Part shown: positions 9,963-36,219 of the stretch, one piece after another | How positions within the stretch are numbered: position 1 is the stretch's first letter | Layout: each line of letters begins with the position of its first letter | Source of the DNA: Adineta ricciae | Taxonomy: Eukaryota; Rotifera; Eurotatoria; Adinetida; Adinetidae | Length of the DNA stretch: 64,000 nucleotides | Assembly: GCA_905250025.1 (NCBI GenBank) | Contig: CAJNOJ010000177.1 | Span: forward strand, 124,001-188,000 | Direction of reading: 5' to 3' | Made by a program: the position numbers and the translations under genes | Notes under the pieces: generated by a model | Seen by the model: the letters and a program-made list of their open reading frames with translations, nothing else | Told to the model about the DNA's origin: nothing | Databases searched by the model: none

Positions 9963-11165
9963 TCATAATTTTGTATCGACTGGGCGTTTTCTTGATAACT
10001 TCTTTCGATCTTTCGAAAACTTATCGATTCCCACGAGAAAAATACTTGTTGTCACTAGAAATGATCCTAATATAACAAACGAATTCGATTTGACCCGAGA
10101 AAATAAATTCTGTAATATAATGGCAAAGAGTATATCAGATGATTGAACCACTGATATTATCGCCGGATGTTCGAGTTTAATAGCACGTTGTGTGATTGTT
10201 GATGAGAAGACTTGCATTAACGAAACAGATGCAGCGAGAAAGAATTGCCATGTAAACATTGTTTGTTTTTCATATTTGTAAACAATAAAACGATTGTAGA
10301 TGTGGTTGAGAAGAAGTATGATTAAAGTTAAGAGTGAAAATTCGAGCATAATGATACTTTGAGGAATTTTCGAAATGATTAGTTTCTTGTTCAGCACCAT
10401 ACTACATGATATCGATAAAGCACATGCAAGTGCAAGGCAAAGGCCAAGTAAACGATAAGATTTGTCCGATTCGAAATCGATATCAGCTGTTCGATGCGCT
10501 GAGACCTTAGTTTGGTTAACTAGTGATGATTGATTAGGAAATAGAAATGTTGGTTGAGCAACTAGTACAACGCCAGTCAATGTTAAGATAATGGCAAGAA
10601 TAGTTGATATGGATATACGATCGTGAAAGACAATCATTGCTAGAATAGCTGTCCAAATCACTTGAGTGTAACGGCAGGTTGTTAGATCGGGTAGTGGAAT
10701 GTAACGATAACTGAGAAAGAATAAGAATAGTCCACTTGATCCGACAATTGTACGAACGATTTGTAGCAGAATCAATTTATTTGAACCGTGGATAAATTTA
10801 TTTTTCTTGTAGAGAATAAATGCGACTAAGATAATTGATTGTAAAAGAAATCGAACCAAGAGTGCATCGAAGAAATCGACACGTAATTGTTTGATTAAAA
10901 ATCCCGAACATGTAAAGATAAATGATCCACAGAGAGCGTAGAATATTCCAGTACATCGTTTAATTACATGAGAACATGTCGTTGATTCTTGTTTAAAAGA
11001 CTCTTTTCTTTCGTTCTCAACAACAGCGACAACAACATCCAATTCATCCGTGTCAATTAATGGACCAAATAAAGGATCTCCATTACAAACTTCCTCGTCA
11101 ATAATACTACTTTTTCTTTCTATATGGTCGTCGTCTTGCAATGCTGCAGACGATTCTTGTTTCAT
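9963..11165 (-). CDS. EamA/SLC35G-like membrane transporter, copy 1
   Basis: A single uninterrupted frame of 400 codons, notable in a window where most genes are split. About ten hydrophobic segments arranged as two EamA repeats follow a 65-residue acidic cytosolic N-terminus. The motif RYTQVIWTAILAMIVFHDR at the end of repeat 1 and ITQRAIKLEHPAIISVVQSSDILFA in repeat 2 are typical of the SLC35G (TMEM20-like) group of the drug/metabolite transporter superfamily. The substrate is unknown. The next gene, 11676-12848, is a paralogue on the same strand sharing these motifs. The lack of introns in both points to duplication of an intronless ancestor, perhaps retroposed. Confidence 0.88.
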   Translation of the reverse strand: MKQESSAALQDDDHIERKSSIIDEEVCNGDPLFGPLIDTDELDVVVAVVENERKESFKQESTTCSHVIKRCTGIFYALCGSFIFTCSGFLIKQLRVDFFDALLVRFLLQSIILVAFILYKKNKFIHGSNKLILLQIVRTIVGSSGLFLFFLSYRYIPLPDLTTCRYTQVIWTAILAMIVFHDRISISTILAIILTLTGVVLVAQPTFLFPNQSSLVNQTKVSAHRTADIDFESDKSYRLLGLCLALACALSISCSMVLNKKLIISKIPQSIIMLEFSLLTLIILLLNHIYNRFIVYKYEKQTMFTWQFFLAASVSLMQVFSSTITQRAIKLEHPAIISVVQSSDILFAIILQNLFSRVKSNSFVILGSFLVTTSIFLVGIDKFSKDRKKLSRKRPVDTKL

Positions 11166-11675
11166 TTTTCGAAATTACTTACGTAGTACGAGCAATAACA
11201 AGCAAATGCCAATCTTTTCTCTATGTGCATTTAGATAGAAAAGAATAACAACTGCCCTTCACTCCCATGACTATAAATATTTCATTTATTCTTTGTACTT
11301 TTAAGCCATTGATCGCGTTATTAAAAGATTGACGGGAAATATCGAGAAAGGACTTTAGAGGTCGTTCGTAGTGATCGTTATTTACTGCCGGCTACCACTG
11401 TTAAGTTTTAATCTCATCGTCTGCAAAGATTATAATCGTTTTTCACAAATTGGATAAAGGTGAGATTGAGATGTAAGGGGTAAATGCTAGAGACTCACGA
11501 CTGTTCTTAGTATTCAACTTTACAATGATAGAGTTAAGGGGTAAAGAGCAAGTGCATGTCTTTATTGTACTGATTGATAGGCCTGGAAACTGATAACGAC
11601 AATTTATATTTTCTGGAGATGTTTTCCACTATGTGAATTGTTTGAATACATTACACCCAAACAAAGTTCAAAGAA
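11166..11675. other. Intergenic between the two transporter copies
   Basis: 510 bp with no coding signal. It should contain the promoter of copy 1 and the 3' UTR of copy 2. Confidence 0.4.
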
Positions 11676-12848
11676 TTACTTAAATTCATTATTTTCCCGT
11701 AGACGAATACGCTTTTGTCGGTCTAACCAAAATTTATGTCCACCGATGATAAAAATACTTAGAAAGACTAACGTTGAACCAATTAAAGTTAAGCCATTGG
11801 ATTTGTTTTTTGAGAAAACGTTTTTCAGAACCAAAGCGAAGAGAATATCCGACGCTTGAATGACTGTAACAATCGATGGATGTTCACGTTTGATTGCTTT
11901 TTGTGTTAGAACCATAGGAATCAGTTGCAATGTCGCCAGAAAAGTCGCAACAAGAAAATCGTTAGTTAAATAATTTGTTCGGATATGAAATTTTCGTTGA
12001 TTAGTTTTTGACAATGTCCAATAATATGTTTGAATAAATAACAGGAGACAAAATGTTGTTAGGATAAAATGAAACATGATTATACTTTGACGAATTTTAA
12101 ATTCAAATAATTTCTTTGCCAATATAATCCCCAGAGATATCGATATCGCACAGAGTAATGCCACAAACATACCTGTGAAACGTGGTTTTGCATTCTCCTG
12201 CATCATTATTAATAGTGTTTCGTTAGTTACATTGGATTTTAGGAAAAGAAAGGATGGTTGTGCAACGCAAACCACCCCTGCAAGTGTTGAGATACTTGCG
12301 ATTACCGTTGGCAGAGTAACACGTTCGCGAAAGATGATTGAAGACAAAATAGCTGTCCAAACGACTTGAGTGTATCGTATCGTGATTAGATCAGGTAGAG
12401 GAAGAAGATTGAGGCCAAGATAGAAACAGATACTACCCGTTGCAGCAATGATTGATCGAATTAATATTAAAAAGCTATGATAATTCGATGAGAAAGGATG
12501 ATAACCCTTGTATAGAATATACCCAAATGAAATTAATCCTTGAATGAAGAATCGGACGAGAAAAACATCTAATAAGACGACGTCTAATTGTTGAATAATG
12601 AAATTCGAACACGTGAATAATAATGAAGCAAGTAGGGAATACAAAATACCGGAAAATCTCTCGAAGTAACTGAGAAATTTTGCTAGAAGAGTTGCTTGTT
12701 TTGCTGTATCATTGTTAATACTCGTCGAATGGTAGAAAATGGATGATCGTCGTTCGAAATATTTTGGATTATTGTGAAGATCTTCGAAGGGTTGAAGTAA
12801 AGGATCGAGAGCTGCAATTGCTTCGTTTGGTAATGATGATGATGACAT
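11676..12848 (-). CDS. EamA/SLC35G-like membrane transporter, copy 2
   Basis: A single 390-codon frame without introns. It aligns with copy 1 along its length: both have the short segment FTCSxFxIxQL in TM1, the block IRYTQVVWTAILSSIIFRER where copy 1 has RYTQVIWTAILAMIVFHDR, GVVCVAQPSFLF versus GVVLVAQPTFLF, and LTQKAIKREHPSIVTVIQASDILFA versus ITQRAIKLEHPAIISVVQSSDILFA. About ten membrane segments are expected, with both termini cytosolic. The copies are clearly paralogous but well diverged, so the duplication is not recent. Substrate unknown. Confidence 0.88.
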   Translation of the reverse strand: MSSSSLPNEAIAALDPLLQPFEDLHNNPKYFERRSSIFYHSTSINNDTAKQATLLAKFLSYFERFSGILYSLLASLLFTCSNFIIQQLDVVLLDVFLVRFFIQGLISFGYILYKGYHPFSSNYHSFLILIRSIIAATGSICFYLGLNLLPLPDLITIRYTQVVWTAILSSIIFRERVTLPTVIASISTLAGVVCVAQPSFLFLKSNVTNETLLIMMQENAKPRFTGMFVALLCAISISLGIILAKKLFEFKIRQSIIMFHFILTTFCLLLFIQTYYWTLSKTNQRKFHIRTNYLTNDFLVATFLATLQLIPMVLTQKAIKREHPSIVTVIQASDILFALVLKNVFSKNKSNGLTLIGSTLVFLSIFIIGGHKFWLDRQKRIRLRENNEFK

Positions 12849-17882: not shown

Positions 17883-19849
17883 TTACATATAACAACGAAT
17901 GATTCCTGTGCGAAGATTAAATCCAATTAATACTTCTTTATTCGGCCCAATGACAACACTTAAACAATGTTTTCCTTCGATTCGGCCAACCGATTGATTT
18001 TTTGTATTGAAATGTATAAATAAAGACCGTTTTACATTTCCTTCGAACATACAATCAAATTTCAACAACAAACTATTATCTCGTGGAAACAAGCCAATAT
18101 CCCAGATATTCGTACTGTTTCCAACAGTAAAATGGCTGACGAAAATTCGTTCACGAGAGATTTTGTTATAAATGTACACTTGGTGAAAATCTTTGCTGAG
18201 TACGGCGAGTAGTTGTTGATTAATGGCAAGGCGTAATGGAATGAAATTGGATTCTTTATCAAAAGTTACGAATTGATCGTGTCTGGAGAAAAGACTCGAA
18301 ATTTCATGAGACGATAATGGTTGAACATGAAAGAATATCGTTTGAGTGACAGAATCGATTGCCCAAAGACGATTTTCATCAGCGAGAAAATGCCGAACAA
18401 GATTCAATAGGTAAATAGGTCCGTATTCGAAGTTACCATCGTGCGAGAAGAAATAAATCGCATCTTGTCGATCGTTATCACGAATATGTACAAGCATGAA
18501 ATGACTAAAAACGGCAAATGATTGTACATGAATACGAACTTGCGCAGGAAAAAGATGAAATGTGCGAATATATCGAGGAGAATCGTACGTAACTGGTGAG
18601 ATGTAGTTGAAGAGAGAAATGATGCCTGATGAACTACAACTGAAGATTAATGTGGATTTACCAACGGAATGTACACATAGATGGGAAGGTAATGTATTGA
18701 CATTTACAGTCCACATTGGAAGTTTGGGTGGAATTGATTGAAGTGACGTATCACCTGATGTGTTGACCATCGATTGATCAGGTGTTAACTTAGATGATTT
18801 TGTTTCGTCGTCCGTAGATTTGAAAAGAAGTTCACCAAACATGTGGTTCGATGGTTTCATTGATGGGGGACGGAGTACAGGTACCTAAATAATCGTGAAT
18901 GTATGGAGTATTTGAAAGGATTAAAGTAAGACGAACGATATCTGCTTTATGTTTGAGTAGACGAAGTTTGCGATCGGCTTCATCGCTTAAACGTTTGATT
19001 TCTTTTTCGACATCGAGATTTTCTAGCAGATTCTTATTTTTCCTAGCAAGAAAAGAGAAGATTTCAATGCATGATGATTTATATCACTAGAACTGATATA
19101 CTTTAAGGCATTTAGTCGGGGCTCAACTAATTCCGAAACCGATTCGATATCAATTGGTTGATGTTTTAATCTGCAATGAAATAAGGATTTCTATTTATTT
19201 GAAGTTTGAGCAAGTGTACTAATTTACGCATTGAGTTCATTTGCTTTTTGTTGTTTGGTTAGTAAATCATTCAGTTTCTTTTCATAATTTTCAATTGTTT
19301 GATTGAAATTGGCTGTTCGTTGATCAATAAGCGTGTAAATCTCATTCATATCTCCATAGATTTTATCCAAGGAAATCATTTTTTGATTCGAGATTAATTT
19401 GTCACATTTTTTCACTGTTTCAACAATCTTTCTTTTGATACTTTCCTGTTCAATCTCACATTTTTCACAAATTCGACTTCGAACATTATTGACATGATTC
19501 TTTCCGCAAGATACACATATACGCTGAGCTTGTTCTTCTCGTAGATATTGTTTCACCATCGTTGCTAGTGTTCCATGCGCTATCAGACCAGTTGCAAATC
19601 GATTTAAGTTATCAAACGGAATTCGCATTGAACAAATCGGACAAATAACTAAAAAGATGAACTTTCGACTCATTCGATTCTATGAGTAAAGCGAAATATA
19701 CTACAATGATCTTGATTTCTTCGTGCCAAATCTAAGCAGCATGAACGACAGAAAACATGACTGCAAATAAGCATCACAGGATCATTGTATAGATGAGATT
19801 CTGATGGTTTGGCTTGGCATGAAACACGCTCACGTGTAAACAACGGCAT
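17883..19849 (-). CDS. TL-A: RING / coiled coil / propeller-like protein (TRIM-like array gene 1)
   Basis: At least six exons. Exon 19705-19849 starts the protein and, joined to 19228-19648, makes a RING-like finger: SCQAK, then LICSHVFCRSCC, then ICPIC. Only one Cys of the first zinc pair is present, so the RING may be weakened. A second Cys cluster (CVSCGK...CEKCEIEQ) sits where a B-box would be, then a long coiled coil. The linker reads FGELLF, followed by a domain of about 300 residues at 17883-18780 made of repeating short beta-strand-like segments, which I read as a propeller. It ends IIRCYM. The stop is 90 bp from the start... of the next unit's stop region, so the genes are tightly packed. 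The family resembles TRIM E3 ligases with a C-terminal recognition domain, but this domain has no NHL or SPRY signature that I can identify. Confidence 0.8.
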
Positions 19850-19938
19850 GATAGTTTATGCAATCTAAAATAGCAAAATAAAAGTTAAAACAACCTTAAG
19901 AACGTATACTCAATATGACTGGACAAAATCAGATCTGA

Positions 19939-21627
19939 CTATTTACTGTAACATTGAATCGCGAATGTATGGGACTCATTCGTATATGTACTGAGTAGAA
20001 ACTCATGATCTAACTTCCCTAAGGTTATATTTATAGTTTTACTAGAATGAATTTCTTCTTGAACTTGTTCGTTATCTATATGAATGATTGAGATAGAATG
20101 CAGAAAACGGTAGAGTAACGTATGATTGCTTAGTTCGAAATCGCATGATTGAGACTCGAACCGTTTCAAATAGGCACTTGTTTGTTTGTCGAAGAGAAGA
20201 ATAATTCCAGTAGTTGATCGATCCATCACTGCGACGCGTGTTTGATTCAAAGCAAATCGAAATGGATAAAAAGATTGTTGTTTAAAAGATGTGAATTGCG
20301 TTTTTTCAGTACATTCGCTGTTGGTTGTATCAAGCTTAAAATAGAATATCGAAGAAGAAATCAATTCCAAATACCATAAATGAAGATCATTGAAGCGTAG
20401 TTGACTAATATATTCATTGGGAAATGATTGAGAACGTAGTAGATGGCCATTGTGTGAGTAGAAATGAAGAATAGATTCGATTGATGAATTGAGAGAAACT
20501 ATAAGAAATGATCTTGTCGCAATCAGTGATTTAACAGACAGCGAAAGAGATTTTTCAATGGTTTGTAAATAAAATCGTTGTAAAAATGCTAAATTTGATG
20601 TATTGTACGAATAAACATTGACGTCACCTCGATCTGTGCAAAGAAATAGTTTCGATGACTCAGATTCAAATACAATATGAGTTGGATGAAAAGGACATGA
20701 CATTGACCAACTCATGTGTGACGTAGGTGCAATTGAACGTTCGGAGTCAGATGAAACAAGTTCGCCAAGTAAACCAATAGGTGCCATTGTTGTTTCGATT
20801 AGTGCAATATTTGCTTGTGACTTGTACTGTTCACGAAGAGAGTCATTGTTGCTAAAGTTACTGTGAGGATGTGTGTTTTCACAATTTGGTATTTGAACTC
20901 ACTCGTTGGTTCGTTGTTCACCAAATGATTCATAACCAGAAGTGGAATTCGTTTCTTCGTGCAACCTATCGGATAATGAACAATGTGTGTCAAGAATGAG
21001 AATCTAGACTCACTTTTGTTCGTCAATTTGAGCTAATAGGGAAACAGTGTACGCATCTACCTACGAATCATTTCGATTAAATGATTTGAGAGAAGATGAA
21101 AGAGAAACCTGGTCATTGCGTTCAGATGTACAAATATCAATATGTAATTTCATATTTTCTAATTTATTCCTTGTTTGTTCAACATGCTGTTGAGTTCTTC
21201 GCATAAACCTACGACATTGCTCGATTGTTTGTAAAATACTCTTTTTCACTTCCATTCGATGTGATATTAAACATTGATTGCACAGATTCTTCTGACAATG
21301 ATGACAATACTCCAACTTCTCTTCTACCACATTGAAACAAACTGGACACGAACTCTCTCGCACTGGAATCATCTGTTCATCGCACTGTAAAGCAGTAAGA
21401 TACGGTACACAATGTAATGTTACATAATATTTCACTGCTGACCAATCGTCAAACCGATGATGTCTCAAGCAAATGCGACATGCTAATACAATCTGATCTC
21501 TACTGTCCGAATCATCACATTGTAAACACGGAATGCATTTAAAACAAAAGATATGTTTACATGGCAATCGTCTTGGATCATTGAATGTCTGGAAACAAAT
21601 CCGACAGAATTTCTCTTTGAAAATCAT
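19939..21627 (-). CDS. TL-B: RING / B-box-like / coiled coil / propeller-like protein (array gene 2)
   Basis: Begins with a full RING: CRICFQTFNDPRRLPCKHIFCFKC... then CRIC, in a first exon of about 560 nt. A second zinc finger, CPVCFNVVEEKLEYCHHCQK then CNQC and an H, is B-box-like. Helical residues with coiled-coil character follow. Short exons near 20880-20950 and 20800 lead into GLLGELV, the linker motif common to the array. The C-terminal domain (from about 20720 to 19939) has the same strand pattern as TL-A, including the stretch FRFALNQTRVAVMDRS that matches LRLAINQQLLAVLSKD in TL-A. It ends AIQCYSK, the most diverged tail of the set. The exact joint between the first and second exons was not resolved. 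Confidence 0.78.
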
Positions 21628-21956
21628 CTGTAATGATATAATATGAGATAAAACTACAAGAATTGTTTGTTTATTTCATATATTACTTCTCTTGTTTATC
21701 TATTAATTTAATACAACAACAAAGAATGAAATAAGGAGGATTGTCATCAAAGAGAAAATATTCATAAATGCACTGAAAAATGAGAGATAATATTTAACAA
21801 CTAGTTTATCACGAAAAACAACTATGAGAAGTTTTCTTATTGACTTTGAATACTTGAAAATATAAAACAAAAATGATCAATATCTATATGAAGAAATACC
21901 TGACAAAACTATTGCTTTGTTACTTTTTACATAAAATTACTCATGAATGAAGAAAG
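21628..21956. other. Intergenic between TL-B and TL-C
   Basis: About 330 bp, AT-rich, no coding signal. It carries the TL-B promoter and the TL-C 3' UTR. Confidence 0.4.
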
Positions 21957-24735
21957 TTAATAACAATGAACCATACCGCGTTCACCACGAAGAGAAAATC
22001 CCATGATAAGTTCATCATCTGGGCCTATGAAAAGTTCATTAGAAAAACTTTTCGTGTTATTTCTCTAAAGACAAAGATTTTTACCGAGTGCTATGCCATA
22101 CAATGTATCTGCTTGAATACGACGTTTCTCTTGTCCGTCGGAGGTGATTTCCATCAGCTGCCGTCGTGGATTGCTATGAGATTTGGCTCCGGTCGATCTT
22201 TCGTTTAAACTATTGTAACATATATCTTCGCTTAATTTCAATAAACTTCGATTATCTTTGAAAATGACGCCATCGGTTAATTTCCATTGTTGATTACAAG
22301 AATTTTCATACATTGTGATCAAACGAAGTTTATCGTCTTTACTGTACAAACGATACACATCGCGTTCAACATCAATCAAACCAATTGAATGATCGGATTG
22401 TATCATTATGGATGGTTCGAACAATTCTTCTGATAAATCTAAAAGAATTTCTTCCGCTTGTAAACATTTTCGAATTTCATCCACTTTGTTCGGTGTCATA
22501 TAACAATACACATTATTTTCCATTGGATTCAAAGCCCATAGACAACCGTAGATTTGATCAGCGAGAATCGCCCGTATGGGATGTGATTGATAAACGCCGT
22601 CGATTTCTTCGCCACCATGAGAAAATAGATAAATCATTCCGCCATGATCATTACAACGACCCTACGAAGAGCAAATCCAACAAGTTCTTTCGTTTGCACG
22701 GAAAACTCATCGTACCTGTTCGCCTTTCAGGATTGGTAAGCCAGCCTTGATCAATTTGGAATGTTCGATTTCATTTGATCGCTGTTCAAAACGACGAACA
22801 TAGACAACGATAGCGAATTCATAAACAGTAAATGATTCCAAAAGTAATCGCGAATTCTTTGGAAAAAGTTCGCCCGTACCGATAATCGATGGTTTTAGAT
22901 TAGTTTTATATTTCGGTAGACTATAAACACCAAGTCGACCATAATTATCAGAAATAAATAACATATAATCGTGTTTATGATGAGCACGGACATCAGCCTG
23001 TCGAGCTCGATTACGATTGTCGAGTACATACAAAAAGAAGGGAATATCTTTGAAACTGATAGACCATTGGTATCGATTGTTTGGTATAGTGTCAAAATTA
23101 GTTTCATTGGGTTGAAGTAGTGGAGTATGTGAATAGGACAATCCACGACCACGTGAATAACGACTACCGGAGGATCTAAAGGAAATTTTACAGACCATTG
23201 CGATAGTTTCTTCGTTGAATATTTACCGTGAATTTCGGGAATACTGATAGTTTCGAGCCGGTGGCCTGAGTAAATGTGACAGATGTTGAATTCCACGTTC
23301 AGCACCGCGTGATCGAAATGACGATCGCATCCGACGAGGAAATCGTGTTCGTTCGGGTGCTTCTAGCGCCAGTGGTGATACAACGTTGTCACTGGGTTTT
23401 ATTTCTTGATTATCACTTGTCGTAGATCTTATTCCCTGGTCTGTGGACGATGATTGATCATCAAATTTGAGTTCACCAATAAATTGACTGATGTTAATAG
23501 AGAATGCGTCAGCTTGAGACAGGTAAGGAATCTTGTATGAGAAAGATGTTAATTGATAGCTTGAATTTTGATTTTTCCTACTTTCATTTCGATCTCTTTT
23601 ATCTGCTTATCACGCCAAACTAGTTTTTCTAGAAGATCTTCTGTTTCTCCAAGAAATGCAACCAAATCCGATACATTTGTTTGTTCTCTATAACAAGTCA
23701 TCGTTTCTCATGCTTGATTCCTAAGATTTCTCACTCAAAAATGTTTGGTAAACGTTCTCGAATCGATTGGTAATCATTATCGACGTTATTTGTCTTCACT
23801 CTAAAACCAAGTTCGATTGAAAACTCGAAGAAAAATTCATCTATTTACATTTTTTCGAGATTCTGCATATGATTATCAATGCGTGTTGCTAATGTTTGTC
23901 GATGTTGATCGATAATTGTCTTCAGATTTTGACTTCTATCTTCGATCGTTCTTCTGATTGTATCGAGTTTTGACGTCGCATCCGTTCGGTTTTGATGCGA
24001 TAGAACTGGACATAGAAAACGATAGTCCGTATTATAGTTTTGTCGCTTATATCAACAGAAAAACATTTACGTACGAACATGTTCGTTTATTTGATGGAAT
24101 TTATCTTTACATTGCTTCCATTTCTCGTGTAGAACATCCGTAATCGATTGATAATGCTGTCCGATGCACAATTCGCATATATCGCATTGGCAATGTTCAC
24201 AAAGAACAATCAGATGAGATTTTTTCTTGCAAATGGTACACGGCGGTTGAGCAACAGCAACTTGTTTACGTATGTTCGATGAACATACTGAAATACTTGT
24301 TTGATGATCATTGAAACGAGTGTCCTCTTCGATGGCTGAAGGCGACGTGCAATCAACATCGTAATCAACTAGTTTCCTTGCAGAATTCTGTTTCTTTTTA
24401 ATATGTTGACTGACAAGATCATTGACAACACTATCGATCACTAAAGACTAAATAAACAGAGACAAATCAATCGATAAGTAGTGATTTCCCTTTCCAACAA
24501 AGCTCAGCTACATTGTTATGCTTTATTATTATTGCAGACACTTCACCTTTTCGAATTCAATTTGTGTTTGAAATCGATGTATAGCTGAACAAGGACATGA
24601 TAACGTGTAGTTATTAGCGATCTTTAAACAACACAAATAGCAATAGACACAACCACAACGAAGACGACGAGCATCAGAAAACAAGTTTTTACATATTAAA
24701 CATCGAACAAGATGATCCGGTAGATAACAGGCCAT
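21957..24735 (-). CDS. TL-C: RING / B-box-like / coiled coil / propeller-like protein (array gene 3)
   Basis: Exon 1 encodes CLICKNLFSDARRLRCGC then YCYLCC and CPC, a RING in which the usual zinc-binding His is replaced by Cys. Next comes a B-box-like finger PPCTICKKKSHLIVLCEHCQ with CDICELC and an H. Coiled-coil exons run over 23560-23950. The linker reads IGELKF near 23480. The C-terminal domain extends over several exons; the final exon is reached by splicing from a donor near 22089 to an acceptor near 22026 and ends in GPDDELIMGFSLRG...VHCY with the stop at about 21957. Reading through that donor gives a false stop at 22065. As elsewhere in the array, function as an E3 ligase is inferred from RING plus coiled coil only. 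Confidence 0.75.
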
Positions 24736-24884
24736 TATGTTCTAGAACAAATCAAAACTCATATACGAGCAAATGCTTCTTCTATCTTTCTTTTGTCGTG
24801 TACATCTAATATATAATTTGACTATAAAAACAACACATGAGAAGAAAACAAAGTAAATTACATAGAGAATAAAATTGGGGAGAG

Positions 24885-27225
24885 TTAAACATAACATTTG
24901 ACAATGCCTTTGGTATTTACTCGTATACCAATGAGAATTTCGTCAGTCGGAGTTATCATCATTCCATATGCATCGAGTTCTTCGATCAATCCGATAATAT
25001 TATGCTGTGGACTGGCATCAAGTTGGTAATAAACATGTTTCGATGGTCCGCTTTTCAATGTACTCATCTCATCGAGTTTAATAAGTAAGCTATTATCGGA
25101 AAATAACGCCATATCCCAACAAAAATGCGTTGATTCATTGTGAACATTCACATATTCATAAATTTCCTGTTTGGTTCGTTTGTCATAAACGTGAATAGCT
25201 TGTCGATTTTTATCTAAGACAGCTAAGGCATTTTGATTGACAGATATATGTATCGGTGCAAATGGTTTAGAAAATTGCACATGTGAATGACGGGTTTGAA
25301 GACATTCTTCGGGATTTAATGATTTCAGTTCGGGCAAATTATAATAAAATAATGCTAATTGCTTTTGGTCCAACGACCAAAGAATGTTTTTGCCAATATC
25401 AACAGTTAATTCACGTGAAGGATGATTATGCACACATTTACCATTGGAAATCAATTTCCCATCGAACGTAAACCAATAGATTGTACCATGCAATTCATTC
25501 TTTTTACGTTTGAAGACAATGATCCATGATTTATAAACCACGAATGAGTCGATTATTGTTTGATCTTCATCGTTCGCGGTTGGACCTGGATTATCTTTGA
25601 ATAATTTGATTTCCCGCTGTAAACTTGGTTTTTGTCGAATATCATTTGATTTATGTAGTCTGTAGATTGCTAAGGAACCTACATGAGAAAGTTTACAAAC
25701 GATTCACAAACATAGAAAGAAGGCAGACCATATTTATCACAGACGAATATTTGATTTCCCAAAATTCGAACGTAATACGGTACGGAGAAATATTCGATTT
25801 GCCAAAAGAGTTTTTTCTTTTGTAAATGAGGACTCGACGATAACTGCTCGTATTTTATTTTGTTTTCAGGTAGATTTGATGAATTGATAACATCGAATTC
25901 GTCATCTTCAGATTTACATTGAGAGTTGCGATGACTGTCCGTCAATTGAGATGATGGAGAATCAGTATGTACATCAGTGAACTCAAGTGAACCAAAAAGT
26001 GAAGATATGTCGATTTGCTCGGGTAGACTGAGAAATGGAAACTAAAACAATCATCAGATCGTTCGAGATACTCATCAAATTCTTTCGTACTTTCAATTCA
26101 TTACGATCAAGGAGATTATTGAGATTATTCAATCGATCTTCAAGATGTTCGATTTCGAATAGGAAGTCATTCACCTTGTCAGCATCAATATCAGACGATC
26201 TAAAAGAGAGTATCTCAAGAAAATGATGATCGAATGGCGAAAGACATTTACTGAAATAATTCACCGACTCGTTTATCAATCGATTCGTATTCGTCAACGA
26301 CTTGTTCATGAATAAAACTAAATGAGAAAGAAGATGCTTAGTTTCGCATTTAAAGTTCAATTTACGATTGTTTATATGTTTGTCGATGTTTTTCAATGGT
26401 GTCCATGTGATAATTCTTTTGAGTTTCGACTGTTTTTATCAGTTGATCACTTTGTTTACTAATGAGAGTCTGCAAATTTCGTGCTTTATTGTACATTTCT
26501 ATTGCTTCATTATCAAATCGTACTAAAAATACATCGAGTGAATTGTCATATGAGAGACAACAACATATGTTACTTGATTTTTCATTAATCGTTTCAAATC
26601 GAGCTTTACACGCATCCCATTCACGTTTAACATCGTCGTTAATAACAGTACGGTGTTCACTGGAGCATTTTATGCAAATAACATTGTCACAATGACTACA
26701 AACAATCAATTCTCCTCGAATGTTACACGATTGACATTTAGCTATGAGTGCTCGTGTGGCCGGTTGTGAAGTAATCGATGGCGTCGAACATTGTGAGACC
26801 GAATGATTTAACGGGTGAAGTTCTTGTTTGGATGTCAATGGCACAGGTGTTGATGGTACTGTCAGCGGATTGTGCGAGATTGTTGACGATGGACGAGATG
26901 CAAGTCCGGATAAGCGACTTTGATCTTTTTTGAATTGAGTGACCATCGATGCAAGAAATCCATCGCGCATGCAACGGTTTTGAAATTCGTCGAATGAACT
27001 GTACTGATGAAGTTTTTCACATTTGGGACAGGTTAATGTTAAGGTTTCCTCATTAAATCGACCGCATATACAATCAAAACAAAACGAATGTGAACAAGGG
27101 ATCTAAAAGCGCACACAAACGTTCTTATCGACTGTTGCTCTCGCTTCTCAAATGCTGCTCACCTGTCGAGGATCAGCATAGTAACTGTGACACAATCCAC
27201 ACATGACAAGTTTTGCATTAATCAT
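24885..27225 (-). CDS. TL-D: RING / B-box-like / coiled coil / propeller-like protein (array gene 4)
   Basis: Exon 1 (MINAKLVMCGLCHSYYADPRQ) splices to IPCSHSFCFDCICG and CPKC, giving a complete C3HC4-type RING. A Ser/Thr/Pro linker precedes a B-box-like finger CQSCNIRGELIVCSHCDNV with CIKCSSEH. Helical segments around 26400-26570 and 26000-26300 form the coiled coil. The linker is LFGSLEF. The C-terminal domain runs from about 25830 to 24885, with the shared pattern PTDEILIGI near the end and the tail IVKCYV. Of the seven copies this and TL-E keep the most regular zinc-binding residues. Confidence 0.8.
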
Positions 27226-27484
27226 CGTTGGAAACGTGATGATATCAAACGAACATCAAGATGAACAAAATCTGAAAAGAAAATCTTGTTCAATAAAGTT
27301 TCTTATTTACACTGTTTAAAGTTAAATCTGACAACGAGAAAGAAAAATAGATAAGAACAGTAAATCGTGACTATTGGATTGTATGATCTGACTTGTAGGA
27401 AATATAAACAACTTATAAGACGTGAACGAAAAACAAACAAAGGATAAATGAATATGAAACAATTAAATTATTTCGAATTTTCGA

Positions 27485-29942
27485 TCAGACGTAGCAATTT
27501 ATGAGACCTTCGAAACAATTTGCTTTCCTTAAGCCAACAATCACTTCCGACTCGGAACCAATAGCAAAGCCGTAAACATTCGTTGCTTGAATTTGTGAAA
27601 CCGCTTCGTAATTTCCATTGCTTTCATTCCGTCGCACATGTACAACTACGTGGTGAATCACTTGTGAACGATCACCGGTGCGTTCGTTATCGTCGAAGCG
27701 TAACAGGAGACTATTATCCGGAAAGATTTCTACACGCCATAATTTATTATCACCGGTTGGCAAATAATCTGCTGCATAAACACCGACTTCTTTTTGAGTC
27801 AATTTATCAAAAAAAGTTACTATTTGCGTTCGAGAGTCTAGAAAACGAGTCAATGTGATCAGCGAATCAATGAAATTTTCTAACTGACCAAGTATCGCGA
27901 GAAGATTTTGATTGATAGCCATTCGAATAACATCACACGTTCGATCGTTTAAGCGAGTCGTTGATTTATGTGTCGCCAAGAATGACTGGATTTCTTGAGT
28001 AGTTCGTGGTAGATCATGTTTGTAAATGCAATGCATACCGCGGTCTACAGCCCCTACCAGTCGAATTGATAGTAGAGAAAAAACCTTAGAAATGAAATTT
28101 TCGACATACATATACAATTTCCTTTGGGACTTTCATCGCAGATCAATTGTCGAAGTGTGTATCGATGCTCGTATTCGACTTTCATTTGTAATTGTCCTGT
28201 ATGGGTGAAAAATGCGATAAAATTAGAAAGTGATTCGTCTGATCCTTTGACAAAAACACAAATGTATGGTTTATCTAAATCATCCAAATTCAACCATAAA
28301 CACGAGTTTCACATTCCATCTTATATGACTTACAAACACTGAATGATTCGACGTAAACACGAGACCATGTTCCAACTCGAAACTGTGGAAAAAGAACAAA
28401 GGATTTCTTTGGTGTTGGTTTAGTACGTGCATTGGTGTATGTCCATGTGCTAAAAAGTACTGAAGTTTACGAATAGTTCAAAGGAGAGCATTCACCTGAC
28501 AAAACCCCAACGATCTGATGCAAATAAGATTGATTGCCGATAGAGTACGATATATTGTGGAACGAATTTGAAATGTATAGACCAAAGAAGTTTTTTATTT
28601 GAGATATTCTCCAATAATGTCTTGTTCGTTGGCGTTGGAGTTTCGTCTCCTTGATTGATTTGTTGTGGAGTTTCATCTGACTTGACGCTTTCATTATCGT
28701 TGATTTCGACGGATTCCTCTTCGTTGTTTGTATTTTCTTCGTTGTTATCATCATCGATGGAAGTACGTAGATGTTCAACAGATGTTTGAATAGAAATTGC
28801 TCCGAGTAACGATGAATTCAAATCTGACGTGGAATACTTGGGTAACTGGTGTGAATACAGATCGATCTGTTTATGTTTTTGTCGTAAATTCATTCTGAAA
28901 CCATTGATTTCTTCGAGGAAACATTCCGCTTTTATCGGATCTGGATCTGTCAAACTAAAAAGTCGAAAGAGAATCGTGAAAAATCAAGAAAATACGCATA
29001 GAAGTGGAATCGTACGAGAGAAAGACTTGAATACGTTGGTCAATCGATTGAAACTGTGATGCAATATCCTCCCGAATACTCTCATATTTCTGCGCATATT
29101 GATTGATTTTACGTAAGTAAATCTCTCGCCACTTTTCGATTGTTTGTAGAAGAAAATTCGACCGTTTTTCGATTCGAGATTTCAATTCGTACATGTGAGA
29201 TTCAAGATCAAATTGTTGTTCATCGAAAAGTACTTAAAAAGAACCAACAGATAGGCGAATAAACAGAAACCACACATATCGAAATCTTACTGGACTTTTC
29301 GTACATATAATTCCACATTTGTTTACATGTCATCCAACTTTGTTGAACATTATTATTTACAATTAATTGGTGCTGAGAAATACATTCAAAACAAATAACT
29401 TGTTCACATTCCGGACAAACAACTAAATCGAAAATCAGAGTTCGGATTCTTCGAACAATTTCCTTGACATACCCAGTTCTTTTCGAAGTGTGCATTGCGC
29501 ACATTTAGCAATGAGAAATGGCGCTGGACTTCGTTCAAGGATTTGCTCGAGTGTGAATGCAAGCAATGGAGCAGTTGAAATGGATTTTTTGCGTCGATGT
29601 TCACCGACTAATGACATAACGAAGGCATCGACAATCAAACTTGTTTCAAACTGTGTAAAAGAATCGAATTGATGAATACGTCTAAAACAAAACTAGGAAT
29701 TTGTCGGCCAATCCACTCGAACAAGCACGTACTTGCATCGCGAACAAATAATTCTATTGGATGTTGGTTCGAAATGTGAAACGATACATTGATAACAAAA
29801 TGAATGACCACACCGCAATTGTCTGGCATCCTTTTCGCCCGAAAGACAGAAATGAAGTGTCGCGAAGGAAAAACAAGACAAAACTTACATTGAACAATGA
29901 TTGACAAACTGTACACAAAAGAATGTTGCGCGATATGGACAT
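27485..29942 (-). CDS. TL-E: RING / B-box-like / coiled coil / propeller-like protein (array gene 5)
   Basis: Exon 1 starts MSISRNILLCTVCQSLFN and splices to DARQLRCGHSFCYQC...CSRC, a canonical RING. The next exon (RIHQFDSFTQFET...) matches the equivalent segment of TL-D. The B-box is AKCAQCTLRKEL joined to VVCPECEQV, CFEC and an H. Coiled coil at about 28955-29200. The GEL linker has drifted to LLGAIS and is followed by an acidic, Asn/Glu-rich insert. The C-terminal domain ends with SESEVIVGLR and the tail LINCYV at 27485. Several short introns lie in the propeller-like part. Confidence 0.78.
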
Positions 29943-30555
29943 ATTTCATTGACTTCTAAAACGAAGATTTCACATGAGAGAAGAGATTTCGTATCTAATC
30001 ATCGCCTTTATTAATAACCAATAGAAAAAGGAAAAAAAACAACATAAAATGAAAAAGAAGCAGAAACAAATGAAAGTGATATGAATAACGTTGTTATATT
30101 AAAATGTAGACGCTTTCTCATTCCTCTCTCCTTTTTTTTTTCTTAGTGTTTCGTTACTTTAATATCTTCCATCCATATCACAATAAACACCGAAAGTAAG
30201 TAGAGAAATGAACAATGAATGTCTATATACAAAAGATATCTTTTTCACACGAATGAAAGCAAAGACAACTGAAAGGTCTTGATTTATCTTGACTAGAGAT
30301 CAAACAAATATAAGCATAAACGAACGAAGTACACACCAACATTATCAAAACAAACTGGCATTCTCACCAATAAATACAGTTATGTATCATCTTTAACCTT
30401 CTTCGGGAAGAAGCAAAAACAACGAACAAAAAATATACAAATCAAAGATGATAGTTTCGCCTGAATGAATTTTTACTTTGATCGTGAACGAATACGAGAA
30501 AGGATGATCAGATTCTTCTTCTCGATTTCCAATGATCATTCATGAGACTGTTTAC
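29943..30555. other. Intergenic between TL-E and TL-F
   Basis: About 610 bp, AT-rich with a poly-T run near 30130. No gene seen; expected to hold the TL-E promoter and TL-F 3' UTR. Confidence 0.4.
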
Positions 30556-33500
30556 TTATCTTCTTACATAACATTGAACAATGCCACTTTCTTTTGTTTG
30601 ACGAATACCCAAAATGACTTCATTGTTCGGTCCGATGATCATTCCGAACACGGAATTGAGTTGAATTTTACTGATGATTTGTTTTGTTGCTCGATGTACT
30701 TCGTAAACAATATGTTGACGAGTCACAGCATCGTGGTCAGCACGTTCATCAATTTTAAATATGAGACTGTTATTGTCTTTGCGAATTGCTACAAATAAAC
30801 TTGACTGATTAGTAGAGAAGAATAAGATTCGTCTCGTGCAATTCGACTACTCCTCGGGAGCAAGGAATGGTTAGAGTGAATTAGTTCTCGACTACTTACC
30901 GACGATTCCCCAACTTTCGAATTTATCCATAAAATGTTCGCATTTGAATTCTTCGATTTTTTCAGCTGTTTGTTTATCATATAAATGAACGGTACAATCA
31001 TTTCGTTCATAAAATCCTAAAATATCGTCGTTCTGTAGCATTTTCACAGCCGTATAATTAGAATTGAATTGTGTGAAATCACGTCGGGTCTTCATACAAG
31101 TTTCAATTTCTCCCAAACTATTCGGTAATGTATGATAGTAGATGGTACAGCGCATTCGATCCAAACAGTAGAGTCGATTGGCATTCTGATCGCACAAAAT
31201 ATGATGAACAGGAATGTTCTGGTGAATACCATTGGGTAAAACCGGTTTGCATTCGTGAGTAAAAAAATATAGTGTACCAGTCATTGTGTCTTGCTTTTTC
31301 CGAGAATAAACAATAAGAAATCGAGATGAAGCAACAACCGATTCGATCCATTCATCCGTATCATTAGGAAACAATGTATAAGAGTCAAATGGTTTGATTG
31401 GTTTGGGCGGAATGCTGCACACGGACACTTTACCATATTTATCAACTACAAAGATTTTTGGTGTGGGATAAGGTGTCATACATAGAAAGTTAGGTACTAA
31501 AAGTATATAAACGATGAATTTGAATGCATTTAAATATAGTCTAAGTACCAGCGGTATGCTCGACTTTCCATGATTTAGTAAATGTACTAGTAGAAGGAGT
31601 TTTATTTTGCGCGGCAGCAGTAGCTGGCAGTGTTTTTGCAGATTTCTCGTTTCCATTCGTCGTCGGATTCCCATCAGCTGCTGCCATAGCGAATGACGAA
31701 GGATGCGCCGGCGACGAACCAGCATTGATTACTTTACTGTATGGTGCATTAAATTCATGATGAATCTGAGCGGCCATTCGACGAAATTCATCGAATGGAT
31801 CGAGTGTACTATTTGGGCGTGTTTCGGCCATCAGCGGCTTTACTATATGCGCATCGGTTGTTGCCGAAGCAATGTGATTCGTCGGTGGCGTGATCGTGTT
31901 CACCAATGGCGGAGGCATTCCTGGCGGAAGTTTTGGTGATAGATTCGGCGTAAATTTATTCGGAAATATCGATGAATGATCCAGAAATCCATTTTGTTTA
32001 GGCAAATGTTGATGGTCCAATAGAGAAGAAATGGTTAGATTAGGAAGCGAATTCATCATAGGAGAGTTAAAACGAAGTTCACCCAGTAATTTCTCGATTG
32101 ATACACGTTCGTATCGCGCGACAGTTGGAATCTGTTATACAAGAAAGATTTGATAATCAGATGTCTACAATTTCCTAATGGAATATTTACTTTTAAGATG
32201 TGCGTATCAATTATATCGTTACGTTTACTCATTCGATTTTGAAGTTCACGAATGTCACGCAAGAAATCATCTTGAGTATAAGAGCCGATGTCTCCACCAC
32301 TGGAAAAGGAATCCGTAGGTATTTCTTTTTACTTGTCAATAACATACTTTAAGGCGTTTTCATATCGAATTTGTATCTGTTGAAAGGCATTTGCTAGTTC
32401 GCTATGTTTAATACTGAAAGTAACAAAATAGATCAAAAGGAATAGAAACATTTCCTTGTGATCTCAATTACCTGTTCACAGTCTGTTCATTTTCAATGTG
32501 TTCATTGATTCGTCCAATTAGAAGATCACGTTGTTGAATCACAAGTTGTGTCGCATCACGTGTACGTTGTTCAATAGCAACACGTATGGCAGCAAGATCA
32601 CTTTCGATTTGAGTTCGATCACGACTGTATTGATCTACGATATGATTTCACATAAAGTATTCGAGAAAAAAGTATTTGATCAAAGAAAGAATTACTTAGT
32701 TTTTGAAGTAAAGTACTGTATTTATTTTTACAAGTTTGCCATTTATTAGCCAGCTCTTGTGTATCGACTTTCGTTGTTACTCGATGTTCTTCAGCACATT
32801 TGAAGCATACAAAATGATCACAGTGTTCGCAAACCTACAAAATTTGCATATAAAAAGACTGAACATTTTTGTATTCAATAAACTCACGATCACTTGGCAT
32901 TTTTTACCACAACTATGGCAGCGGGCAATGACGGCCTCAAATCCAGAGGATGATTGCATTGGGGGCGGCGGCGGCGGCGGTGGTGGCGACGGCGTTGGTA
33001 CTGGTGAGGAAATAATACCATTCATTAGAGAAGGTGGAGGTGTGCTGCTGCCCAAAAATGTTTTTAGTTTTACTGATTTTGCCAGATTTTCCGCTGCAGA
33101 AGACCTTGGTGGCATCAAGGGTACCGGTGGCGGCGGTTTTGGAGCAACTGTAATGGATTCTGGTACCGATGCAGGTGGTGGTGGTGGTGGCGGTGGTGGT
33201 GATGGATGAGAAGGAGGAGGTGTAGTATTCGCTGGTGCTCCTTCTGGTGGCGCACCTGGTGGAGCTGTTGGTAAATGGGCTGCTGCTTTTTTCACTTCCT
33301 TCAGTACCGATTTCTCAGCGCCCGATGCCTTTTCTACTGGCTACATAAACACGATATTCACCAATAAAAGATCTATCATTTTCTGTCGTTAAAAAGCTTA
33401 CCATGGATGATGCGAACGCGACTTCACGTATCGCTGTTTTCTTTCCAAAACCGGAATGTGCTACTTGTTGTAATGATTTCTTGAAGATATTTTTCGATTT

Positions 33501-33761
33501 GAACGAATGTGTTACATCGCATACGGGACAAATAAGTGTATTGTCTTCTTTATTGAACAGTTCCAAACAACATTTATGGCAAACAATATGTCCGCTAAAT
33601 AGAACAAATCTGATTTTCGAAAAAACGATTTCAATCAACAAAATTACCAGGGAATTTTCCGCGGTTCATTACCGTAAATATTATCACTAAATTAAAGATG
33701 ATCATATGCGATAGAACTATTAGAAATCTTACCAGTTCGGACAGTTATCTGGGTTGGACAT
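30556..33761 (-). CDS. TL-F: RING / proline-rich / B-box-like / coiled coil / propeller-like protein (array gene 6)
   Basis: Three small exons build the RING: MSNPDNCPN, then a mini-exon DNIYGNEPRKIP whose ends complete Cys codons, then GHIVCHKCCLELF...CPVC. A long proline-rich stretch (33000-33280, runs of up to ten Pro encoded by GGT/GGC repeats on the plus strand) is unique to this copy. The B-box-like finger follows (ARCHSCGKKCQV with later C and H residues). Coiled coil lies over 32200-32700. The linker is LLGELRF. A Pro/Ser/Ala-rich insert precedes the C-terminal domain, which holds PNNEVILGIR and the tail IVQCYVRR. Poly-Pro suggests SH3/WW or profilin binding. Confidence 0.78.
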
Positions 33762-34096
33762 TGTGCTTCCAAGAAATTAAATGAACATATGCATCTAAAA
33801 TATAGTTGATTAGCATAAAAGAAGACTGATGTGCGATGCTGTTGATTTTTTTCAGAAGCAAGAACAAAGACCAGTACAGTCCTTCACTTTTTTTTTTCTT
33901 CGTTGTCAAGAACATACTTGAAAGGCACGAAAAGAACACGAAAGAAATTTTTTTCTAAAAAAGCCAAACGAAAAAGACCTCAAACACAATTCTCAAATAT
34001 GTCGCTATCTGATCTGGTCAAATATCTAGACAAGAAAACTGTTCAAAAATAATTTATTGTTCGTAATAAGAAGAATTCTAGTGACGAAAATATTCC
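33762..34096. other. Intergenic between TL-F and TL-G
   Basis: About 335 bp with a poly-T tract near 33890; no coding signal. Confidence 0.4.
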
Positions 34097-36219
34097 TTAA
34101 ATATAACATTCAATTAAACCATTTTGTTGGTATCGTTTGCAGCCCAAGAGAATTTCATCGTTTGGTCCAATAACGAATCCAAAGACCGATGTACGTTCGA
34201 TCTGTGAAATCGATGCACCAGTGGGATCTAATTCGAGGATAAGATGATTTATCGAAGGAGGACGACTATTTGGAGGTAAATCTTCATCTAATTTAAGCAC
34301 CATGGAGTTGTCATCACGAATCTATGAAAAACTATGAACATTCTCTGAGCACAAGTCATCAGCATGACATACTAAAGCATTCCAGAGTCGAAAGATTCCT
34401 TTGGTGCGTAAAAGATTTTCTACTTCGTTGATTTGTTTCTTGGTTTGTTTATCAAATATGTGCGCACTTTGAGAGTTTCGTTCGACGATCGCAACTGATG
34501 TTTGGTTTTGAGCTATTCTAAAAGTATATGAGACTTGAAAATATAACCTTGAACTCTTTCTTCAAAAGGAATGGATTACCTAATCGGTTCAAATTCTCGG
34601 CCGAATTTAAGAAATTCTTCACGTTGTTTCATAAAATCTCCAATCTGTTGCACATTGATCGGTAATTGATTATAATAAACTGCAAACCGTCAACTTCATA
34701 CAAAAGTATTCGAAATGCTTCGTACTTTACCTAAATGTTGATGTCGATCCACTCCCCACAGACATCGGAAACCAACATCAGCTGAAAGTTGTCGAACAGG
34801 AAAGTTTTGTAGACATGTTTCTCCCTGCTGACAACCACGGTGATCGAAAAAGTAGATCGAACTCGTATCTGTCTGATCACTCAAATCTAAAGTTAGCAGC
34901 TCAAGCACTTCATTCCATAAGCAAAAGCTTGAACATACGGGCGGCGACTACAATGAATGGCGTATAAACTGTAAATGTTTCAATGATCTGCGGTTGTTTG
35001 TTCGTCGTATTGCCAGGAAAGAGCTCGAAATGACGTAGATGACGTGGAGCATTCTTCGAGTTAGTACTATCAAGTTGATATAAATCGATCGAGCCAAATT
35101 TATCACAAGCGAAGAGAAGATGATTCTTCTTGGAAAGTATACAGAGAAAATGAGGTACGCCTGCTGCATCTGTTGTCCATTGCTTTTGTCTTTGCATGAC
35201 AGGCAATGATAATGATGATGTAGATGATAATGAGATGGAATCGTCTGGTATAGTTGTTGAATGTTCTTGTGAACCACCTTTGGCCTCACCGAGAATGTGT
35301 TCATGCATTAATCGACTAGTAGCAACCGATGGTTTCGTCAACATTGAATTCGACATTGCTTTAGAAGTCCATTGTAATTCACCGAACACATCGGATATAC
35401 TGAGTGATTTCGGTGGGGACAAATAAGGATACTATACAAAAAAAAATCAAAAGGATGTTTCCAAATGATCATGTTGAGTGCTGATTTTCTAGTGTACAGT
35501 TAGCACAAGAAAGAAACGTAGGCACTTACTTTTAGTGAAAATGTTTGGATTTGTTTTTCTCGATTCGAGATTAACATATTGAAATAATTGATTTCCATTA
35601 GAAAATCGTCGGTGCTAAATGATGCACTGGGATTTCTACACAAACACAAAACAAAACATGGAAATTCTCTTTTAAATCCGTTCTTACTGAAAGACATCAA
35701 TTAAGCGTTGATTTATGGAATCATACAACTGTTGAAGATCTATATGTTGAACACTAAACAGAATACTTCTCAATTACACGACAACTCGCACCTTTTCTCC
35801 GTCGTACTTTGCGAAATTAGACTGGATATATTCATCTATTTTACTAAGTAAATTATTTTTCTCATTCTCAACTAAATGTATCAAATCCGATCGTCGTTGA
35901 TCGATCACTGTGCGGATTTGGTCGATTTCATTCTCGTAATTGATCGCATCTTTATCATATGTGTCTAAAAAAAACAAACACACGAACATTTTGCATAGGG
36001 AAAACATCCATCTCTACCTGCTATTTGGCATAAATCTTCAAACTTTGTTTTACACAAATTCCACTGTTCTTTCAACGTTTCATGAAGTTTAACTTGATGT
36101 TTGTCAACACACGTTTGACAAATAACTTCATCACAATGTGAGCATATGAAAAGGTTAGTTTTTATAGAACATGATGCACATTTAGCGATTACTGTCAATG
36201 GAATATGATTCGTTGTCAT
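34097..36219 (-). CDS. TL-G: B-box-like / coiled coil / propeller-like protein without a RING (array gene 7)
   Basis: The first recognisable domain is the B-box-like finger CASCSIKTNLFICSHCDEV with CQTCVDKH; no RING cysteines can be found upstream as far as 36700. I place the start at the Met at 36219 (MTTNHIPL), though an upstream exon near 36362 (MATNRMNSCKR) is possible. Coiled-coil exons at 35780-35965 and 35540-35700 follow. The linker reads VFGELQW. The C-terminal domain is split by several short introns and ends PNDEILLGCK...LIECYI. Without a RING it would not be an E3 ligase by itself; it could pair with other copies through the coiled coil. Confidence 0.75.

Follow-up and report, generated by a model that had tools for sequence, protein, structure and literature searches.

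The TRIM-NHL proteins Mei-P26, NHL-2, Thin and TRIM32, the closest known counterparts of the proteins described here, combine a RING, a B-box and a coiled coil with a C-terminal six-bladed propeller, and are not known to carry a filamin domain. In Marin 2012 (PMC3503706), the TRIM-NHL proteins form subfamily C, and a second paper counts TRIM56, with its NHL-like domain, as a distantly related member (PMC9634614). Here, we describe seven TRIM-type genes, TL1 to TL7, found in tandem in the bdelloid rotifer Adineta ricciae, within a window of 64,000 nucleotides (assembly GCA_905250025.1, contig CAJNOJ010000177.1, hereafter C177, positions 124,001 to 188,000 of the forward strand; gene positions below are those of the window). 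The array is probably an old TRIM-type family, with a RING, a B-box-like finger and a coiled coil, in which the C-terminal domain (CTD) is a strongly diverged six-bladed NHL-like beta-propeller and whose members would work as E3-type adaptors.

The TL proteins resemble the TRIM-NHL proteins in their overall plan of a RING, a B-box-like finger, a putative coiled coil and a predicted terminal propeller, but differ from them in having no detectable NHL repeat sequence, a single B-box-like finger and an arrangement of seven genes in tandem, and in that TL1 is without a RING and TL7 is degenerate. Unlike TRIM2, TRIM3 and TRIM71, they show no filamin match, neither filamin nor any Pfam model above cut-off being found between the coiled coil and the propeller of the seven proteins, and the stretch preceding the CTD is just 26% and 33% identical between the homeologues described below. 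TRIM56 resembles them as a TRIM protein with a divergent NHL-like C-terminus; the 50 VIA-align matches listed for the TL7 CTD include no propeller of TRIM56. The same genome also holds a gene of the Mei-P26/NHL-2 type (C484:52501-58500, with a near-identical N-terminal part on C739:1-4000), which has the same overall plan but whose NHL domain is readily identified (phmmer to Mei-P26 1.1e-143; Pfam NHL 4.8e-24) and gives no convincing alignment with the TL CTDs.

A Tandem Array of Seven Related TRIM-Type Genes

The seven genes lie head to tail on the minus strand, from 36219 to 17883, and are separated from stop to start by 335, 613, 259, 149, 329 and 89 bp. They are intron-rich: splice-aware models give each of them 4-11 exons, free of internal stops. 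These models are predictions, obtained with a small Viterbi exon predictor written for this analysis and corrected manually, and their least certain parts are the start codons and the finger region of TL7. The common plan is a RING, one B-box-like finger, a coiled-coil-like helix, a linker resembling Gly-Glu-Leu (G-E-L) and a CTD of about 260-330 residues. BLASTP links all 21 pairs of the seven proteins, with best E-values per pair from 2.6e-83 (TL1-TL4) to 5.3e-5 (TL2-TL6), and their relatedness is therefore far beyond chance. The linker reads G-E-L in five of the seven models (LGAI in TL3, FGSL in TL4), and all seven proteins have Cys-Tyr within the final four residues. Furthermore, intron positions and phases in the coiled-coil region are common to the copies: an exon of 63-69 nt, phase 2 at both ends, is present in all but TL3, directly followed in five genes by an exon of 106-109 nt.

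The full RING zinc-ligand pattern occurs in TL2-TL6, whereas it is absent from TL1, and in the TL7 model the first ligand pair is short of one Cys. With Pfam RING models, matches at E ≤0.1 are obtained for TL2-TL7, the curated cut-off being passed by TL3 and TL6 only. The B-box-like C2C2C2H pattern is present in six of the seven proteins, TL7 being the exception. When a RING and B-box profile was built from four TL proteins, its top matches among 34 PDB sequences were TRIM3 (1.9e-8) and then TRIM2 (2.3e-6). AlphaFold2 (AF2) modelling of a TL6 fragment gave one long helix, residues 117-171, in a block with a predicted local distance difference test score of 74-95; the model is confident for the B-box-like finger and the following helix only, and its structure matches are weak.

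These results agree with most of what a first-pass annotation of the window had described: the same outer bounds, gaps of about 90 to 610 bp, a TRIM-like architecture, strong divergence of the copies (here 17-33% CTD identity between paralogues) and a CTD that could not be assigned. That annotation had also named misassembly as an objection to the array; this is unlikely, since CTD identity between the copies stays below 33% and a second contig follows the block in colinear order.

Predicted Fold of the C-Terminal Domain

The TL CTD is left unnamed by Pfam, NCBIfam and PDB profile searches. The AF2 model of the TL7 CTD is a six-bladed propeller; only TL7 was folded, and the fold is extended to the other TL proteins by homology. 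Compared by VIA-align, the model retrieves TRIM-NHL propellers as 16 of the first 20 entries, with Mei-P26, NHL-2 and Thin among the best. Foldseek gives a mixed order, in which NHL accounts for 3 of 50 rows among the matches listed and E-values favour WD40 rows. The prediction for the CTD is thus a strongly diverged propeller of six blades that comes closest to the NHL domains known from TRIM proteins. The first-pass annotation had held that a clear hit to a known NHL or SPRY family, with plain one-to-one orthologues in other animals, would speak against its reading; in fold, the nearest relatives are indeed TRIM-NHL propellers, while no sequence match was found.

A Homeologous Block and the Age of the Array

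In the degenerate tetraploid genome of bdelloids, a colinear and diverged second copy of a region is expected. Such a copy is present in C21:362001-412000, which matches the whole window from end to end, colinear, in reversed order and diverged. This block holds only two TL genes, TL1' and TL4', adjoining and 287 bp apart: all matches of the seven proteins to the block at E <1e-3 fall in these two, no trace of TL2, TL3, TL5, TL6 or TL7 is found there, and the best tblastn E-value outside local positions 20000-25900 is 0.83. Trees of the CTD and of the full proteins support TL1+TL1' and TL4+TL4' at 100/100 and resolve no other grouping. Because the block on C21 keeps TL1' and TL4', each paired in this way with its counterpart, the array existed before the two homeologous blocks parted, in line with the first-pass annotation, which had called it old or fast evolving. 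The five other members were apparently lost from the C21 copy or never arrived there.

Queries against the whole genome (130 Mb, 1033 contigs) were the full-length proteins for TL1 and TL4, the CTD for TL3, TL6 and TL7, and a single CTD exon for TL2 and for TL5. With one exception on C13, at E 0.056, every CTD match in these exon-wise searches lay on C177 or C21. For TL2, TL3, TL5, TL6 and TL7 this exon-by-exon search, which can miss strongly diverged copies (the TL7 query missed TL6), detected no second copy; hence nothing points to recent amplification.

Selection on the Propeller and Its Loops

Nonsynonymous (dN) and synonymous (dS) divergence was counted by the Nei-Gojobori method for TL1/TL1' and TL4/TL4', the two of seven TL genes that have a homeologue. 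As whole proteins, the pairs are 63% and 64% identical, respectively, each with dN 0.26. The CTD is the best-kept part in both: it is 77% identical in TL1/TL1' (dN 0.147, dS 2.1) and 72% in TL4/TL4' (dN 0.197, dS saturated), compared with 52% over the first 200 residues of TL1 (RING, B-box and coiled coil, RBCC) and 62% over the first 345 of TL4, and with 26% and 33% in the respective linkers. Two flanking transporter pairs have higher dN (0.37 and 0.34) than either CTD. The propellers of TL1 and TL4 are under purifying selection. The diversification of the CTD under positive selection that marks fast-evolving immune TRIM proteins was not seen in TL1 and TL4, a comparison made with saturated dS and pairwise counts.

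Loop classes were defined by mapping the strands of the TL7 model onto the CTD alignment. The b-c loops, which in NHL and WD40 propellers belong to the top face, where ligands bind, are the best kept of the four main loop classes between homeologues, 22 of 25 positions being identical in TL1 and 21 of 23 in TL4; strand b is level with them in TL1 (37/41) and below them in TL4 (34/40). Between paralogues, in contrast, the same loops are only 16% identical, the lowest value of the main loop classes. Being the most kept between homeologues and the least shared among paralogues, the b-c loops suggest fixed, paralogue-specific ligands for the TL propellers.

Alternative Explanations and Proposed Function

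The first-pass annotation had suggested a lineage-specific sensor set in an old or fast-evolving array; on this view, the TL proteins would be sensors of pathogens or stress with a CTD that diversifies under positive selection. The TRIM architecture, the tandem array and the low paralogue identity of the CTD would all suit this proposal, and so would two published views: fast tandem growth of TRIM gene sets may be linked to responses to external aggression (Marin 2012, PMC3503706), and a duck study attributes species differences in TRIM repertoires to likely pathogen pressure (PMC10445537). Fast-evolving sensors are nevertheless argued against by the conservation of the CTD and of the b-c loops between homeologues, with dN below that of the flanking transporters, and recent amplification has left no sign (TL2 and TL5 having been searched by one exon each); nothing in the present results points to an antiviral role, and we consider the proposal improbable. 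Two further readings appear somewhat less remote, each still doubtful. The TL proteins could be RNA-binding post-transcriptional repressors like Mei-P26, Brat and LIN-41, with an NHL-like face that binds mRNA, as RNA-binding NHL domains are among the nearest solved folds and the TL5 model has an Arg/Gly-rich linker; moreover, the RING is dispensable in the Mei-P26 reporter assays described in PMC9070667, which fits the RING-less TL1. However, the net charge of the nine TL CTDs (the seven and those of TL1' and TL4') is only -8 to +5, a figure of composition and not of surface potential, and a strongly basic RNA face is therefore not favoured. According to PMC9634614, the NHL domains of TRIM2 and TRIM3 are of mixed charge, and RNA binding in the manner of Brat is considered improbable for them, so that a protein would be a fitting partner for an NHL-like domain that is not basic. 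Alternatively, the CTD could be a degenerate propeller of the WD40/IFT/VPS type, joined to the RBCC independently of TRIM-NHL, its NHL likeness being a convergence of six-bladed propellers. This is where the Foldseek E-values point, as do weak Pfam matches to IFT80_2nd (TL4, TL4' and TL6), WDR19_2nd (TL2), and IFT122_2nd and VPS8 (TL4'), and a match to Prp17 at E 0.28; none of the models of IFT80, WDR19, IFT122 and VPS8 exceeds the Pfam cut-off, the best being IFT80_2nd on TL6 with 18 bits against 27.

The NHL repeat (PF01436) was not detected in the seven proteins at E ≤0.1, and eight blade peptides of TL1, TL3, TL4, TL7, TL1' and TL4' gave no NHL match at E ≤10, the Mei-P26/NHL-2-type gene of the same genome serving as positive control for the search. 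As the repeat is undetectable by sequence, the family is not filed as a proven member of the TRIM-NHL proteins. The loop contrast is drawn from few positions, by a test chosen after the fact: pooled b-c loops are identical at 43 of 48 positions against 379 of 533 elsewhere (p 0.003), and when labels were shifted round the alignment the joint difference was reached in 3 of 276 shifts and each half alone in 19 and 29.

As to function, which we only infer, the coiled coil would dimerise, the RING of TL2-TL6 would recruit an E2 and ubiquitinate, and in each paralogue one propeller face, formed by the b-c loops, would bind a single fixed partner, either a protein or an RNA. TL1, without a RING, and TL7, with degenerate fingers, may be adaptors or hetero-oligomer partners that have no ligase activity of their own. 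Since the CTD is conserved where it could be tested, the TL proteins appear closer to adaptors that keep the same partners than to rapidly changing pathogen sensors. On the basis of the models, the set would add a variant of TRIM-type proteins, with a predicted fold for the CTD and a weakened case for fast sensors. If the CTD is NHL-derived, it would represent a TRIM lineage in which the propeller, although kept under purifying selection, has become unrecognisable by sequence, and counts of TRIM-NHL genes made with Pfam only would miss such members. The homeologous block, with seven genes against two, would clearly illustrate how genes were lost after an ancient duplication while the loops specific to each member stayed fixed, and these loops give concrete residues to mutate in a search for partners.

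The Individual Genes

All seven are on the minus strand. TL1 (34097..36219; 549 aa, 9 exons) has no RING but a B-box-like finger, a coiled-coil-like helix, an FGEL linker and the propeller CTD (35182-34097); its homeologue TL1' is also without a RING. TL2 (30556..33761) is the longest, with 867 aa and 11 exons: two poly-proline tracts sit between its RING and B-box-like finger, and the coiled-coil-like helix, LGEL and propeller CTD (31573-30556) follow. In TL3 (27485..29942; 655 aa, 10 exons), an acidic linker stands after LGAI, the RING, B-box-like finger, coiled-coil-like helix and propeller CTD (28587-27485) being present. A RING, a B-box-like finger, a coiled-coil-like helix and a propeller CTD also make up TL4 (24885..27225; 693 aa, 6 exons; CTD 25807-24885), with FGSL and with TL4' as homeologue, and TL5 (21957..24735; 766 aa, 9 exons; CTD 23069-21957), with IGEL and an Arg/Gly/Ser-rich linker preceding the propeller. 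TL6 (19939..21627; 513 aa, 4 exons) has a RING, a B-box-like finger, a short helix, LGEL and, encoded by one exon, the CTD (20712-19939) that is shortest and has diverged furthest. TL7 (17883..19849; 581 aa, 5 exons) has a degenerate RING and B-box, a helix, FGEL and a propeller CTD in one exon (18716-17883), the one chosen for folding.

Elsewhere in the genome, RBCC-like or B-box/helix genes whose models have no propeller were seen on C284, C421 and C400 (with RING) and on C25 and C21:614001-620000 (without RING); those of C284, C421, C25 and C21:614001-620000 have TL-like linkers (LIGSIQF, RFGDV).

Spliced Leader, Expression Layout and Neighbouring Genes

A 23-nt pattern for the bdelloid spliced leader occurs at 41 places in the genome, those listed with one mismatch, against none for a reversed control pattern, and each copy at the four loci inspected has a GT donor after it. 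An acceptor-like site (TTTTAG, TTTCAG, TTCTAG or TTACAG) lies ≤60 nt upstream of all nine TL starts, TL1' and TL4' included. It is also found at one of two other window genes tested, and such sites may therefore be due to trans-splicing in general or to 5' introns instead of an operon. Together with the gaps down to 89 bp, the spliced-leader genes and acceptor-like sites are compatible with a possible operon, and none of them proves one. It is conceivable, and in our view rather unlikely, that the TL genes are rotifer-lineage TRIM adaptors older than the homeologous duplication, each propeller having a private b-c-loop ligand, and that one polycistronic transcript, resolved by spliced-leader trans-splicing, co-produces ligase and ligase-dead subunits that hetero-oligomerise. 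Such co-transcription, if true, would bear on a 2021 statement that no report of operons or polycistronic mRNAs existed for rotifers (PMC7986045); a 2025 Nature paper counts rotifers among the lineages with trans-splicing and operonic transcription (PMC12460157).

The spliced-leader-like genes are mostly clustered (contigs C2, C6, C8, C43, C77, C79, C99 and C146) and include 14 inverted pairs, minus then plus, with starts 151-154 bp apart. In the C21 block, the stretch that separates TL4' from the genes shared next (local 26381-34946) matches none of the window's reading frames; it carries, among others, at local 28452-31762, a 19-exon gene model of 792 aa, which we take to resemble a tetratricopeptide-repeat subunit of the anaphase-promoting complex. 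At 9963-12848 the window has a tandem pair of single-exon, multi-spanning transporter-like genes, presumably SLC35/EamA-like, both of which are retained in the C21 block.
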